A stretch of DNA of 50,642 bases from Acidobacteriota bacterium (GTDB taxonomy: Bacteria > Acidobacteriota > Thermoanaerobaculia > Multivoradales > J023): the NCBI GenBank assembly GCA_029263395.1, contig JAJCXO010000272.1:1-50642 (forward strand), read 5' to 3'. This document shows, piece by piece, positions 1,219-45,707 of the stretch. The stretch's first letter is position 1. Each line of letters starts with the position of its first letter. The notes under the pieces were generated by a model. That model made no database searches. It saw only the letters and a program-made list of their open reading frames with translations, and was not told the origin of the DNA. The translations under genes and the position numbers were made by a program.

Positions 1219-2140
1219 CTATTCCTGACTTGCCGAAAGAAGATCGAGCGGACTCTGGACACCTTGCGGACCCTGATTCAAGACGGGGGTATAGATCATC
1301 GTCGTCTTGACATCCGAATGTCCCAGCAACGACTGGATCGTCCGAATGTCGTAGCCCGCTGCCAAGAGATGCGTCGCGAAGGAGTGTCGCAACGTGTGAC
1401 AGCTCGCCTTCTTGGGTATCTTCGACCTCAGCAATGCATTGCGAAACGCGCGTTGAACGCGGCGCTCGTGCAGGTGGTGCCTCCGCCACGCACCACTCCG
1501 GGGATCTCGGCTGGGGCGAGGAGCTGGAAACACATACTGCCATGGCCACTCCCGATCGGCATTTGGATACTTACGAGCCAGCGCGTATGGCAACTCGACG
1601 CCGGCGTAGCCTTCGGCGAGAGCCTTCTCATGCTCCCGATAGACACATTCGAGGTGCTTTTCGAGAGGCGTAACAAGAGAATTCGCGAGCATGGTAACAC
1701 GATCCTTTTCCCCCTTGCCATCGCGAATGACGATCTGACGGTGCTCGAAGTCGACATCTTTGACGCGCAGACGCAGCCCTTCGAGTAGCCTCGAGCCGGT
1801 GGCATAGAGCAAGGAAGAGGTGCTCGACGCCGTTGATCCTGCTGAGGATCGCCTGCACCTCATTGGTGGAAAGGATCACTGGCAGCTTGCGGCGTCGGCG
1901 AGCGCGCACGAGCTCCAGGTCGCCGAGCTCTATGCTGAGAACGTGGCGGTAGAGAAAGAGAATCGCACAGAGTGCCTGGTTTTGGGTGGAGGCGCTGACG
2001 TGGCGGTCCTTGGCGAGATGGGTCAAGAAGGCACTGACTTCGCGCTCGGCAAGGTCGCGAGGGTGGAGCTTGCCATGGAATAGGATGAATCGACGGATCC
2101 TGGCGTGGCCAAGCCCGTCCAGGTGGTGCCAGGCACACAT
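1219..2140 (-). pseudogene. intI: integron integrase (tyrosine recombinase), frameshifted
   Basis: Two frames together spell one IntI-type recombinase. The upstream frame carries RRFILFHGKLHPRDL and AFLTHLA...STQNQAL...LFLYRHVL. The downstream frame carries [22 protein letters not shown], then the IntI-specific insertion ([13 protein letters not shown]...YVFPA), [12 protein letters not shown] and [16 protein letters not shown]. Catalytic residues are all visible: first Arg in TGSRLLE, Lys in GKGEKDR, HxxR in HTLRH, His in LGH and Tyr in MIYT. The frame changes at about position 1815, between the SAM-like N-terminal domain and the catalytic domain. Upstream of about 2095 the N-terminus is further degraded in other frames. 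Integron integrases are normally transcribed away from attI, so attI and any cassettes would lie to the right (above 2200); no confident attI or attC was recognised there. Presumably inactive unless the frameshift is a sequencing error. Confidence 0.85.
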
Positions 2141-2245
2141 CGAGGCACATCGCCACTATCTCTGCGTCGACCTGCACGCAAGATCTCTCTATGCCGTTGG
2201 GACAGCAGGCGCCCACTTTCTAGCCGAGGTAGGTGGCACCTAATC

Positions 2246-2954
2246 TCATGTGTGACCACTTAGTTGCGCGAAGGCAAACCGTCCGCGTTCCGCCACCGAT
2301 GGGGAAGGATCAGAAGCTAGCTGCTCGGCCAGATTTACTGAGTCGGCCCCAACGGACTCTAAGTGTTGGATCAGTAGTTCCCCGGCAACCCGGCGAACCA
2401 TCGGAGACCGATCCACTGCCGCCAAATTTAAGGTTTCCCGAAACGGGCTCGAGACTGATATCGGGCGTTCCCCAAGTATCGGCTCAAATCGCCCCTGGCA
2501 CCACGTTAAGTCTGTCCAAGCCCACTTCCGCCCGGGCGGCGCGCACCTGAGGGACCCAATCATTGAGTCGACGCACTGCTAAGGAGCAGAAAAAGCCGTT
2601 AGGGGCTCCCTCCGATAGAGCGCGTAAAATCCTCTCACGTTTAAAGCCATCACCGCTACACAAGTCCAACCAAGAGACGAAGCTCACTGGCCTTTTCCAG
2701 AACTTCCATCGAGCGAGTGAAGCCGTTTTCTCGATCTCCCAAAGTTCCGTTCGCAGCTTCCTTTCCCAAGCCTCCAGATTGTTCAACGACAACCGCGACG
2801 TCTCGGCAATAAGCGAAGCCATGGCCTCCGCTACTTCGCGCCCAGCAAGTCCGGAATGAAGATACCGATGGACTGCCGCTAAGACATCGTTTTCGTTTTG
2901 CAGTTGATCAGGCATGGGCTGGAGTACCGGTCCAGCGGTGGAGCCCTGAGGCAT
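2246..2954 (-). pseudogene. HEAT-repeat-like hypothetical protein, frameshifted
   Basis: The first frame (156 codons from the ATG at 2954) includes WLDLCSGDGFKRERILRAL and the HEAT-like helix LAVRRLNDWVPQVRAA, then stops at a TGA at about 2483. The next frame continues with PILGERPIS...LAAVDRSPMVRRVAGELL and further helical sequence to 2246. The combined length is one base over a multiple of three, which fits a single 1-base frameshift at about 2480-2490. The WVPQVRAA and SPMVRRVAG segments look like successive HEAT/armadillo helical pairs, a scaffold that usually mediates protein-protein contacts. The gene lies where cassettes would be expected beside the broken integrase, but its orientation matches the integrase, which is unusual for a cassette. 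Function unknown. Confidence 0.55.
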
Positions 2955-3107
2955 CTCTAACTATGGTATTAGTCATATCTTCAAAGTCATTGACCACTGT
3001 GACAATTGCACATGCCTCTCCTGTCAGATCGAAGGTCCGCGGGTCAAAGTAGCCACAGGCAAGCCAAGACGGTTCCGCCCACTCAGGGCGGGAAACCTTG
3101 GGGTCGT

Positions 3108-3290
3108 CTATCCTCGGGGCTCACGCCGCGTCGCCAGGGCTCCTTGGCGCCAGCCCCGAGCTTTACGATTAAGCCCCTCCCGGGCTTCAGCTCGGGCAGC
3201 TACCGCCAAGGCTCCCACCAGGGCCCAGGGGCGATCGAGTGCGTCGAAGTTGCGCCCGACATCTGAGAGGGCCGCTTCGAAAGTGTTCAA
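3108..3290 (-). pseudogene. truncated nucleotidyltransferase (AbiEii/MNT-like) fragment
   Basis: The first 35 residues (MNTFEAALSDVG...LDRPWALVGALAVAARAEAR) resemble the N-terminus of AbiEii-type or minimal nucleotidyltransferases, in which a [AG]LVGG-A-x-ARAEPR segment precedes the catalytic DxD. Here the sequence after ARAEAR turns into arginine/glycine-rich unrelated residues and stops, so the catalytic core is absent. It overlaps the stop of the upstream small gene by 4 bases, the arrangement of the usual two-gene module. Probably a decayed toxin or regulatory nucleotidyltransferase gene. Confidence 0.5.
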
Positions 3291-3472
3291 GGGGGGGGCT
3301 CCAAAGCCTGTCTATGAGGAGCCACTCGCTGGGTTACCCACTCCCCGAGCCGGCGGTCGATCTCTTCTGGCAAAGCCTCCGGATGCTCCCGGATCAAGAG
3401 CTTCCGCTGCATGGCAATCATCGCTTCGCGAAGCTCGATCGCCGCTCGAAATCTCGCCATGACCCGTTCCAT
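3287..3472 (-). CDS. small partner protein of nucleotidyltransferase module
   Basis: A 61-residue charged protein with the core REAMIAMQRKLLIREHPEALPEEIDRRLGEW. Short proteins of the form HP-x-A-x-x-E-I-x-R-R-L-x-x-W are often encoded immediately upstream of AbiEii/MNT-like nucleotidyltransferases, and the downstream reading frame here overlaps the stop codon in just that way. Family members usually continue with a GAEHGD-like tail; here the end (QALEPPP) differs, next to a run of G at about 3292, so the 3' end may be frameshifted. Role in a toxin-antitoxin-like pair is inference; with the partner truncated the module is likely dead. Confidence 0.45.
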   Translation of the reverse strand: MERVMARFRAAIELREAMIAMQRKLLIREHPEALPEEIDRRLGEWVTQRVAPHRQALEPPP

Positions 3473-3559
3473 AGCCTGATTTTACCTCTTATCCGCCGAC
3501 TGATCGGCCAAAAGAATGGCAAGGTTCTCACCGACAATCACCGATCCCCGCGTGCCAAC

Positions 3560-3727
3560 ACTCCGGAACCGGCGAACAAAGCTCCAAACCCCGGTGCCGA
3601 CACCCCGGAACCGGCGAACAAAGCTCCAAACCCCGGTGCCGACACCCCGGAACCAGCGAACAAAGCTCCAAACCCCGGTGCCGACACCCCGGAACCGGCG
3701 AACAAAGCTCCAAACCCCGGTGCCGAC
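3560..3727. repeat. 42-bp tandem repeat, 4 near-identical units
   Basis: Four consecutive units start at 3560, 3602, 3644 and 3686. Each has the order CCGGAACCGGCG, AACAAAGCTCC, AAACCCCGGTGCCGAC. Only a few substitutions separate the units. Several frames stay open through the array because 42 is a multiple of 3 (for example a 14-residue GVGTGVWSFVRRFR repeat on the minus strand), but no ribosome-binding site or homology supports translation. The array lies in a gene-free stretch between the nucleotidyltransferase remnant and the SGNH hydrolase. Confidence 0.9.
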
Positions 3728-3868
3728 GCGTTTGTCGGTCGACAATTGCGTTAGCACGCGGTGTTGGCGCGTTTGTCGGCCGACAATTGCGTTAGCACGC
3801 GGTGTTGGCGCGTTTGTCGGCCGACAATTAGCTTAACACCTGGGTCTTTTCTCCATTGTCGGCCGACA
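3728..3868. repeat. 41/42-bp spaced palindrome array (TTGTCGGCCGACAA)
   Basis: Directly after the 42-bp array, a different unit begins at 3728, 3769 and 3810. Each holds the palindrome TTGTCGGCCGACAA: one imperfect copy at 3732-3745 and perfect copies at 3773-3786 and 3814-3827. A fourth core, TGTCGGCCGACA at 3857-3868, sits in otherwise diverged sequence. Centre-to-centre spacings are 41, 41 and 42 bp, close to four turns of B-DNA, so all palindromes would face the same side of the helix. This is the expected layout of an operator array for a dimeric DNA-binding protein, but no such protein can be assigned. Confidence 0.85.
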
Positions 3869-3874
3869 TGTGGC

Positions 3875-3892
3875 CCCGCACCGCGGTGCGGG
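3875..3892. repeat. perfect 18-bp palindrome
   Basis: CCCGCACCGCGGTGCGGG is its own reverse complement. Its centre is 21 bp (two helical turns) from the centre of the last TGTCGGCCGACA palindrome. As RNA it would form a strong stem but without a loop or U-tract, so a classical terminator reading is weak. Between it and the SGNH hydrolase stop at 4055 there is a further hairpin (GATCCC...GGGATC at about 3918-3940) and no supported gene. Confidence 0.8.
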
Positions 3893-4054
3893 AGCCTTGG
3901 ACGACGGACTTGTGACGTGATCCCCCGGTGTTTGAGGGATCTGCGGGCGGGAATCGACCTCTTCACCGGCTGTTTAGGAGTCGATATTGCGGTCAAGATT
4001 CTTGCTGGCCTCGCGGGCGCCGATCGTCACAGTCAGCCTATGTCTTTGCAGGTT

Positions 4055-5248
4055 TCAGGGGTTTCGGTGAAGCCGCCCCCAATCTGCGCTCTCGAAAGCC
4101 CTATTCTCGATCATCCACCCACCCAGTATACGCGCCCTCAGCTCATTACCCTGGCGCGTGAAATGGTAACCGTCGGTATAGAGACTTTCCTGCGCCGGGA
4201 CGTGGCCCGCAAGATCAAACGCTGGAACTCCAAGCGCAGACGCGACGCCTAAGGTCACCCGGTTCGACTCCGCAATTGCCTCCCTGACCTCCGCCAGAGC
4301 CAATGGAGATTTTCCCTGCCAATTCGGGTGATACGGAAACGTCGTCAACACCACACCAACCTCCTGGGCATCGGCGATTGCAACGAGATTCTCGAGATTG
4401 CGACGAAAATAGACTGGCGGATTCTGTTGCAACAATGCGCCAATCGATGTCTCGTTGAACGGCGCGGTCGGATAGGTACCGGCCATCACTTGGGCATGGA
4501 GCTGTGCGGTGCGATGTGATTCCGGAATCGGGCCAAAAACACGTAACAGTGAGCTGTGAGGAATTGCCCAGCCGAGGCGGATCGCCAAGGTGCGCAGTGC
4601 CGCGGAATGCTCGAACAGCGCCGGCATCGGCGCTAGACCCTGGACGCCGGAGGAGCCCGAGTTATCTCCACGGTAAGCGGTAGGCGGGTCCACGAGGCGG
4701 GCGTGGACGTCGTTGATGGCATGTTGAACGATCAATAAGTCCGGTTCGAGATCGAGAACCCGCAGTTCGAGGTTGATCAACGATTCGAGGGAGCTGTAAC
4801 CTGGCACTCCGGCGTTGATGACCTCCACCTTCGGCCTTCCCGCTGACCTCAGAAAACCCTGCAGTAACGCTGGATACGCCTCCGCCGGATCCTCGACCGA
4901 CGACGAGTAGGTGGTTGACCCTCCGAGGCAGACGATGCGATAGACGCCTTCAGGCTTGGGCGTCATGATTTCGTCACCGCGAAAGCCCAAGGCATTGTGC
5001 CGATTACGACCGCTGCGATAGTTCGCCGTCGTGACGTACCCCAGATGCCGATGGGGTCTTAGCTTGCGGCTCTCTTCCGGACGCTCTCTAATCTGGTCGA
5101 CGGAGGCGTAGGCTTGAAACTGATCCGCGGTCGCTCCGTAGCGCAACCACAGCCGGGCCGAGATCTCGAGCACTGCAAACACCGAGACTGACGCGAAGAC
5201 CAAGAGGCCGAACCGGCCAAAGAAGGTCGGGATTCCAGGCCTCGTCAC
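4055..5248 (-). CDS. SGNH/GDSL-family hydrolase, membrane-anchored
   Basis: A 397-residue protein of the SGNH hydrolase superfamily (esterases, lipases, acetyl-transfer or deacetylation enzymes). An N-terminal hydrophobic segment (about residues 11-29) suggests an inner-membrane anchor or uncleaved signal. Block I is VCLGGSTTYSS with the presumed nucleophile Ser111; the oxyanion Gly and Asn lie in NAGVPGYSS (145-153) and HAINDVH (177-182). The catalytic Asp-His pair is in DGYHFTRQGN (359-368). The order and spacing of all blocks look intact. Substrate unknown; membrane-anchored SGNH proteins commonly act on polysaccharide or cell-envelope acyl groups, but nothing nearby identifies a target. 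It is transcribed leftward toward the repeat block and appears to be a single gene. Confidence 0.8.
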   Translation of the reverse strand: MTRPGIPTFFGRFGLLVFASVSVFAVLEISARLWLRYGATADQFQAYASVDQIRERPEESRKLRPHRHLGYVTTANYRSGRNRHNALGFRGDEIMTPKPEGVYRIVCLGGSTTYSSSVEDPAEAYPALLQGFLRSAGRPKVEVINAGVPGYSSLESLINLELRVLDLEPDLLIVQHAINDVHARLVDPPTAYRGDNSGSSGVQGLAPMPALFEHSAALRTLAIRLGWAIPHSSLLRVFGPIPESHRTAQLHAQVMAGTYPTAPFNETSIGALLQQNPPVYFRRNLENLVAIADAQEVGVVLTTFPYHPNWQGKSPLALAEVREAIAESNRVTLGVASALGVPAFDLAGHVPAQESLYTDGYHFTRQGNELRARILGGWMIENRAFESADWGRLHRNP

Positions 5249-44919: not shown

Positions 44920-45256
44920 CAGGTCTCCTCCAGAGCCAGAACCGTCGACGGCATCTGTGGCGTTCAGGCCGTCTTACCGAGGTTACGCGCTGTGACCTCG
45001 CGCTATTCGAGCTCAGTCGAGTCTAGGCAACGGCACCGGATCGCCAGACCGTAGCCCCGCACCACGAAACTTTGGGCGACGGACAACTTCATCATAGGTC
45101 GCGATCAATGCGACTGCCGACCGTTGTGATGCAAAGCGACGAGGGCGCACTCGGCCACACATCCAGCCCCACACACCCAGCCCAGGGGTAAATGTCGCGA
45201 TGGGGGGCACACATCCAATGCCGGTTGCATGGCAAAAATCGCGGTCAGCGAAACGC
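44920..45256. other. gene-free region before the 42-bp array
   Basis: No supported gene, RNA or regulatory motif was found here. A leftward frame crosses it (45013-45318) but runs into repeat sequence and has no recognisable domain. Confidence 0.5.
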
Positions 45257-45707
45257 CTTACTCTCTCCCACGGCAAGCTATTTTCACCGTCAAAACGACT
45301 TACTTTCTCCCACGGCAAGCCAGTTTCACCGTCACAACGGCTTACTTTCTTTCACGGTAAGCAATCTTCACCGCCGCAATGGCTTACTTTCTCTCACGGC
45401 AAGCCAGTTTCGCTGCCGCAACGACTTACTTTCTGACACGGTATGACAGTTTCGCTGCCGCAACGGCATACTTTCTCTCACGGCAAGCCAGTTTCACGTC
45501 GCAATGGCTTACTTTCTCTCACGGCAAGCAATCTTCACGTTGCAGCGCCATACTTTCTCTCACGGCGAACCGTTTTCACCGCCGCAAAGATCTACTTTCT
45601 CTCACGGCAAGCAATTTTCATCGCCGCAAAGACCTACTTTCTCTCACGGCAAGCAATTTTCACCGTCGAAACGACTTACTCTCTCTCACGGCAAGCCAGT
45701 TTCACCC
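45257..45707. repeat. 42-bp tandem array, 11 units
   Basis: Units start at 45257, 45299, 45341, 45383, 45425, 45467, 45508, 45549, 45591, 45633 and 45675: a 42-bp period with two consecutive 41-bp steps in the middle. The first 17-30 bases of each unit (CTTACTTTCTCTCACGGC, then AAGC-A-TTTTCAC) are conserved and the last dozen vary. The 1-bp slips shift the frame, and no ribosome-binding site precedes it, so it is not a coding repeat. There are no unique spacers, so it is not CRISPR. It ends about 115 bp upstream of the exported lectin-like gene, whose leader or regulatory region it may be. Confidence 0.9.

Follow-up and report, generated by a model that had tools for sequence, protein, structure and literature searches.

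A genus-restricted family of dispersed intergenic palindrome arrays in Acidobacteriota, with constrained 41/42-bp spacing: a putative helically phased nucleoprotein site

The block of tandem repeats near the beginning of the window (by which we mean the whole stretch of 50,642 nucleotides analysed here) is one copy of a family of dispersed, intergenic elements of ~340-450 bp, restricted to one genus. Each element is a lattice of two alternating palindromes; the spacing of the palindromes is constrained, the second of them changes symmetrically between copies, and the elements lie between genes, often convergent ones. We would give about even chances to the explanation that they are REP/BIME-class intergenic palindrome arrays acting as DNA, i.e. 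that they constitute, at gene 3′ ends, a putative helically phased nucleoprotein site, for which we infer a protein, its cooperative binding to one face of the helix and a cellular role. Dispersed bacterial palindromic repeats tend to be interpreted as RNA hairpins or as transposon-derived units. Here, helical spacing is conserved more than sequence. This suggests a protein lattice on double-stranded DNA where genes end, and with it the long-standing question of the function of REP/BIME clusters becomes open to direct tests.

Two tandem arrays meeting at position 3727 were found with TRF, one of 42-bp units (3546-3727, 4.3 copies, 0% indels) and one of 41-bp units (3727-3829, 2.5 copies). The palindrome TGTCGNNCGACA, hereafter P1, starts at 3733, 3774, 3815 and 3857, in steps of 41, 41 and 42 bp, and the centre of the fourth P1 (3862.5) is 21 bp away from that of a perfect 18-bp palindrome (3875-3892, centre 3883.5). 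The initial annotation had these array coordinates and spacings right; the letters that it gave for the palindromes had to be corrected, the first being TTGTCGGTCGACAA, which differs by one base, and the last ending in T, and the element reaches further than the end then given (3892), to about 3955. A search of the whole window for TGTCGGCCGACA with at most one mismatch gave four matches, all inside the element, against 0.24 expected; none of 100 shuffles reached four, and this number of near-exact P1 sites is far beyond chance. The features of the window copy are the following:

3540-3955, plus strand (orientation arbitrary): whole element copy, subfamily A; 90% identity to the copy on contig C37 over 3540-3955, matches to 24 partner loci in the compared set, and own-genome blastn matches
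3546-3727, unstranded: 42-bp units, a diverged form of the lattice unit (TRF, lattice phase, unit alignment)
3727-3829, unstranded: 41-bp units with P1 palindromes (TRF, repeats)
3733-3744, unstranded: P1 palindrome 1, TGTCGGTCGACA (palindrome search)
3774-3785, unstranded: P1 palindrome 2, TGTCGGCCGACA (palindrome search)
3815-3826, unstranded: P1 palindrome 3, TGTCGGCCGACA (palindrome search)
3857-3868, unstranded: P1 palindrome 4, TGTCGGCCGACA, with diverged flanks and a spacing of 42 bp (palindrome search)
3875-3892, unstranded: P2 palindrome, perfect over 18 bp, CCCGCACCGCGGTGCGGG (8 of 8 dyad matches, centre 3883.5)
3593, 3635, 3677, 3719, 3760, 3801, 3843, 3885 and 3927 (span 3593-3930), unstranded: P2 half-sites GGTG/GGTC (step series)

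The block had been described as two adjoining arrays that share a period and differ in their unit; the shared 41-42-bp period stands, the different unit does not. The GGTG/GGTC half-sites follow one another from 3593 to 3927 in steps of 42, 42, 42, 41, 41, 42, 42 and 42 bp across both arrays, with the P1 palindromes in between (one GGTC at 3737, within a P1, was set aside), and the score with which the 42-bp and the 41-bp units align is reached by 0.3% of 2000 shuffles. In the copy on contig C175, pairs of P1 occur at 41/42 and also at 83 (= 41+42) bp, and the GGTG series continues in 41/42 steps. Because the half-site phase passes through both arrays, the units align and the C175 copy keeps the same steps, we conclude that the two units are not independent and that both arrays are one lattice. 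When the weak dyads of the window copy are taken one by one, they are at background level (9 centres with at least 6 of 8 matches for 7.7 expected); the lattice is visible in the strong P1 and P2 sites and in family averages, and the latter were therefore used.

A blastn search with 3540-3895 against its own genome (10.68 Mb, 291 contigs) gave 34 matches, including a full-length copy with 92% identity on C37, and among these matches no copy was noticed in which a gene splits the element. The covariance model, constructed from 24 P1-to-P1 stretches of 53-54 bp (23 from the own genome and one from a genus-mate) and used with E-values up to 0.01 on 150 scored candidates per genome, detects at least 25 loci in the own genome (G000) and at least 9 in the genus-mate (G001). 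The latter corresponds to the MAG ‘Acidobacteriota bacterium OFTM268’, 1,900 compared bases of its C313 locus being identical to JAJCXQ010000313.1; the numbering of the contigs and the positions on them are also in agreement. Beyond the genus, the exact 14-mer occurs in none of five genomes of the same family and, once each, in 2 of 34 genomes of the same order. Of 395 other genomes in the phylum, 394 lack the paired P1 pattern; the lone exception (G188) has two P1 pairs, at 57 and 35 bp, which look unrelated. No description of the element family was found among the open-licence PMC papers listed in our searches. The search for the palindrome elsewhere in the genome, which the initial annotation had proposed, leads to many loci, all intergenic and with a fixed 41/42-bp spacing, and of the two signs that it had named as speaking against selection on helical phase, dispersal of the palindromes over the genome is real and free spacing is not.

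Each 41/42-bp unit is composed of P1 (TGTCG-NN-CGACA, nearly constant) and of a second palindrome, P2, located about halfway, the centres of the two being ~20.5-21 bp, or two helical turns, apart. Subfamilies are set by P2 and the linkers, P1 and the spacing being kept: P2 is CACC-GGTG in subfamily A, to which the window copy belongs, GATATYACC-GGTRATATC in B, GATCA-TGATC in C and TGACA-TGTCA in D, a subfamily of the genus-mate, and ATCACC-GGTGAT is another of the subfamily-specific forms. The difference between 41 and 42 bp lies mostly at the centre of P2, with one C-type exception in L072 (by eye). P2 changes symmetrically between copies: in an alignment of 24 sequences (A1), 37 cells are changed on both sides where shuffles give 18.8, and covariation scores 0.215 where they give 0.128, with none of 500 shuffles reaching either value. 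The alignment and the structure were picked by the analyst, and sequences akin to one another, as these are, may surpass shuffles of this sort. The true register beats slides, and shifting by 1-3 columns loses the covariation signal. Counted as pairs with a both-side change there is no excess in A1, since the 7 such pairs, all in P2, compare with 6.5 in shuffles and are reached by 265 of 500.

That spacing is kept beyond sequence, as had been suspected, finds support across the family. All 37 exact P1 pairs of the own genome are at 41 or 42 bp when 39-44 bp are allowed, and their number is still 37 when the range is widened to 32-57 bp; the same search with the reversed palindrome as a control gave no pair in this genome. 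Over the 25 loci (279,150 bases), P1 sites with at most one mismatch show, up to 140 bp, only the distances 41 (31 cases), 42 (18), 82-84 (27) and 123-125 (8), the first P1 interval of each locus being selected by the 53-54 bp model through which the loci were found and the later intervals being unselected. Indels smaller than a unit are very rare. Neutral bacterial DNA acquires about one indel per 10-20 substitutions. The 11 B copies (9 from the own genome, L169 and L173 excluded, and 2 from the genus-mate), with a mean identity of 0.69, have 733 substitutions relative to their consensus for 12 gap events listed, 6 of them internal and of one base, and 6 at or near the ends of the aligned windows, compensating for the internal ones; when the count is restricted to the 233 inner columns, 432 substitutions remain, and the only indel is a one-base insertion that two copies have at the same column (their end gaps apart). 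There are 90 substitutions and no indel in three C copies (L170 and the genus-mate copies excluded). Seven A copies (L159 and L162 excluded) show 88 substitutions; a 42-base event and its compensation are both found in L171, and one-base events in this copy and in L174. Dyads outside the P1 core also favour a lattice of ~20.8-21 bp in subfamilies B and C, equally high scores being reached by 0.5% of the period/phase grid for B and by 3.4% for C, fractions that are optimistic because the phase test was designed after the periodogram peaks had been seen. In the periodogram, 20.5 bp is clear for A and 40.5 for C; for B there is no clear peak at ~21 bp, the top one, at 13.0, being weak. Selection on spacing is well supported, and the fixed spacing could come partly from common descent of the tandem units. 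Between 41 and 42 bp, the centre of P2 usually shifts by one base, a displacement that might be too much for a tight P2 dimer.

Comparison of the two species bears on the age of the family. Contig C92 of the own genome and C363 of the genus-mate carry an orthologous gene together with the element; there, the element shows 63-80% identity per 100 bp, and a single one-base gap falls within it; further gaps, of 2, 9 and 5 bases, lie at its ends or immediately beyond them, and past the element identity drops to 37-43%. Paralogous B copies within the genome, 75-80% identical over the aligned parts, are approximately as diverged as this pair, which is why we think that the family probably predates the split of the two species. 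The positions of the elements turn over between the species: one of the nine genus-mate loci has a flanking gene in common with an own locus, the own contig C148 has no element at the side orthologous to genus-mate C802 (one flank aligned), the element of genus-mate C710 is missing beside the orthologue on own C102 (again with one flank aligned), and what genus-mate C169 has in common with two own loci is only another short repeat.

None of the P1 arrays at the 25 loci overlaps a predicted gene, according to our home-made gene calls. Confident neighbours on both sides could be assigned at 22 of these loci, some of them 1-3 kb off, the window copy and the contig-edge loci L163 and L169 being dropped: 12 gaps are convergent, 9 tandem and 1 divergent, compared to 4, 23 and 15, respectively, for the 42 other gaps of at least 300 bp. 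Convergent gaps are thus favoured (12/22 versus 4/42, Fisher P=0.00016) and divergent ones avoided (1/22 versus 15/42, Fisher P=0.006); with a looser neighbour threshold, 11 of 23 are convergent and 3 divergent. The 30 neighbour proteins scanned, out of 46, include CinA, PPK2, arginase, penicillin amidase, a PALP enzyme, MeaB, OTC and others, 10 being without family, and no function is common to them.

Helical phase in double-stranded DNA is favoured because the core is constant, P2 changes symmetrically, length is constrained and each of the 18 copies tried folds well on either strand (12 shuffles each), as expected of a DNA dyad. The element would work as double-stranded DNA, with selection on the helical phase of its dyads; one or two dimeric proteins would occupy successive P1/P2 dyads along a single face of the helix, and the bound dimers would assemble into a nucleoprotein array at gene 3′ ends. 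Its role may be of the kind proposed for BIME/REP clusters, i.e. supercoiling, insulation or chromosome architecture. As to the nucleoid or partition site proposed initially, a nucleoid or architectural site is possible, and the partition site is an analogy only.

REP/BIME repeats, in those parts of PMC3733652 and PMC1525189 that deal with them, are intergenic, dispersed, palindromic and clustered, with some families being species-specific; they lie preferentially between convergent or unidirectional genes, and the proposed roles include supercoiling through gyrase, termination and mRNA stability, the gyrase/supercoiling role being proposed for BIMEs between convergent genes. As far as these accounts go, our elements are alike in having short palindromic units, in being dispersed (25 loci) and extragenic (0/25 P1 arrays overlap a predicted gene), and in lying between convergent or unidirectional genes, rarely divergent ones (12 convergent, 9 tandem and 1 divergent of 22); their unit is of 41/42 bp and their array of ~340-450 bp, for a REP/BIME unit size of 20-40 bp. 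They are unlike REP/BIME in their two alternating dyads locked to ~20.8 bp and their strong depletion of indels, and also in that the alignments, by inspection, have no constant unpaired GTAG/CGTC tag at unit ends. At the loci examined, no RAYT association was found. The best reading is that the element is an array of the REP/BIME class.

It is rather unlikely, though by no means far-fetched, that the family is a REP/MITE-like selfish element with no host function, whose single-stranded hairpins are recognised by an IS200-type (Y1) transposase and whose spacing is that of the recognised hairpin unit. Such an element would be dispersed, palindromic, intergenic and lineage-restricted, with positions mostly differing between the two species, as is the case here, and the genome has 18 Y1_Tnp matches, a truncated one being beside the C46 copy. 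However, this is the only one of the five Y1 loci examined, out of the 18 matches, that lies by an element, another having a single weak 25-base match; no copy among the 34 blastn matches was noticed to be split around a gene, the copies are ~69% alike without indels, unlike decaying insertions, and the element ends look fuzzy by inspection. The RAYT/REPtron reading was set aside on the same count, one of the five Y1 loci examined. At L152 (G000:C46:18694-18978), a truncated IS200-like Y1 transposase stands directly beside a subfamily B element.

More improbable is a structured RNA made from the neighbouring genes, in which hairpin 3′ ends would serve as mRNA stabiliser, processing site or bidirectional terminator. 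The convergent placement and the symmetric change of P2 would suit it, as would the strong folding of the window copy (z of -4.8 and -5.7 on the two strands), the somewhat better RNAalifold result for one strand of the B alignment (-56.9 versus -47.6), and the dyad mismatches of subfamily A, where G-T exceeds A-C in one orientation by inspection; this strand preference may leave room for an RNA role. Against it, both strands fold well in the 18 copies, the element has no consistent orientation toward tandem genes (by inspection), and the terminator scan of 2000-4500 gave one site, located outside the element (3532-3518, minus strand), versus 2.7 in shuffles, with no Rfam match at gathering score in the window. 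A tRNA scan found nothing, and a promoter scan gave no promoter-like site, its result being at or below that of shuffles.

A centromere- or partition-like site similar to sopC of the F plasmid (tandem repeats of 43 bp that contain a 16-bp inverted repeat) is very improbable: our family has 25 dispersed copies in one genome, is lineage-restricted and often sits in convergent gaps, and ParA/ParB was found neither among 9 proteins scanned close to the window copy nor among the 30 of 46 neighbours scanned at other copies. It also differs from sopC/parS_F in its two dyad classes and in its palindrome, which is unrelated to the SopB site. The resemblance, within what the relevant part of PMC6238139 describes, is in the period, the tandem layout and the single palindrome per unit, i.e. 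in tandem repeats of about four helical turns with one inverted repeat each. An operator array controlling the adjacent genes, which the initial annotation had suggested, has slightly poorer prospects still, the helical phasing of the dyads notwithstanding, as divergent gaps are avoided (1/22), convergent ones preferred (12/22) and the scanned neighbours (30/46) functionally unrelated. Operators of the ArgR/NrdR type have palindromes spaced by whole helical turns; our elements share this spacing and are unlike them in lying at gene 3′ ends, not at promoters, and in forming far longer arrays. Least credible of all are attC/attI sites belonging to a broken integron integrase, the remnant of which (IntI, 1219-2140, minus strand) lies ~1.4 kb away, a reading set aside because the elements are dispersed, with 25 loci, and a single one of the 30 IntI-profile matches in the genome, that of the window, is over the cut-off, although one heptamer seen by eye (GCTTAAC, near 3831) resembles the motif RYYYAAC. 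The integrase itself (TIGR02249; 1219-2140, minus strand) is split over two overlapping frames and is apparently a pseudogene.

We looked for similar arrays outside the phylum; the idea that helically phased TGTCGNNCGACA arrays at multiples of ~21 bp recur in unrelated bacteria as one class of intergenic nucleoprotein sites has to be regarded as a long shot. The palindrome and a range of 38-45 bp were fixed in the cross-phylum scan and genomes were chosen by matching, which makes the following counts a lead, not a test: among the pairs listed, 31 of 31 pairs of a Planctomycetaceae MAG, on 9 contigs and with 17-47 bp allowed, are at 21 or 42 bp; 8 of 8 pairs are at 41/42 bp in a Tannerellaceae MAG, whose genome has two spacers unrelated to each other; and 9 of 9 P1 pairs in four searched MAGs (Bacteroidales, Treponema, Clostridiaceae) are at 41/42. 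From the Planctomycetaceae and Tannerellaceae arrays, a widespread architectural protein may therefore read the P1 core. Among the matches listed, spacings of 38, 39, 43, 44 and 45 bp are also present in other genomes, many matches look coding by inspection (Burkholderia and others), and some arrays have long open frames; the P1-pair matches in viral contigs are two stretches of a single contig. In Planctomycetaceae Roe453_bin113 (L083, L063, L140, L049), the dispersed 21-bp TGTCGNNCGACA arrays have in common a conserved flank around TGCATTTTGCACGTCC or close variants of it. In Streptomyces (L061, L068, L139), paired TGTCGNNCGACA at 43 bp resembles a conserved operator pair.

Other repeats were met in the course of these searches. 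A short one at 3070-3191 of the window, ~0.5 kb to the left of the element, recurs with several matches of 87-89% at the C46 locus (L152:5163-5584) and is also present on C169 of the genus-mate. A second, unrelated 42-bp array at 45252-45706 of the window has 11 units with spacings of 42 (five times), 41, 41 and 42 (three times) and matches at 6 other places of the genome; it is not clearly palindromic, and an open frame from 45504 passes through its end. A stretch of ~100 bp (L180:4026-4130), which came from the search with the flank of genus-mate C710, has many matches in its own genome and may be a coding repeat.
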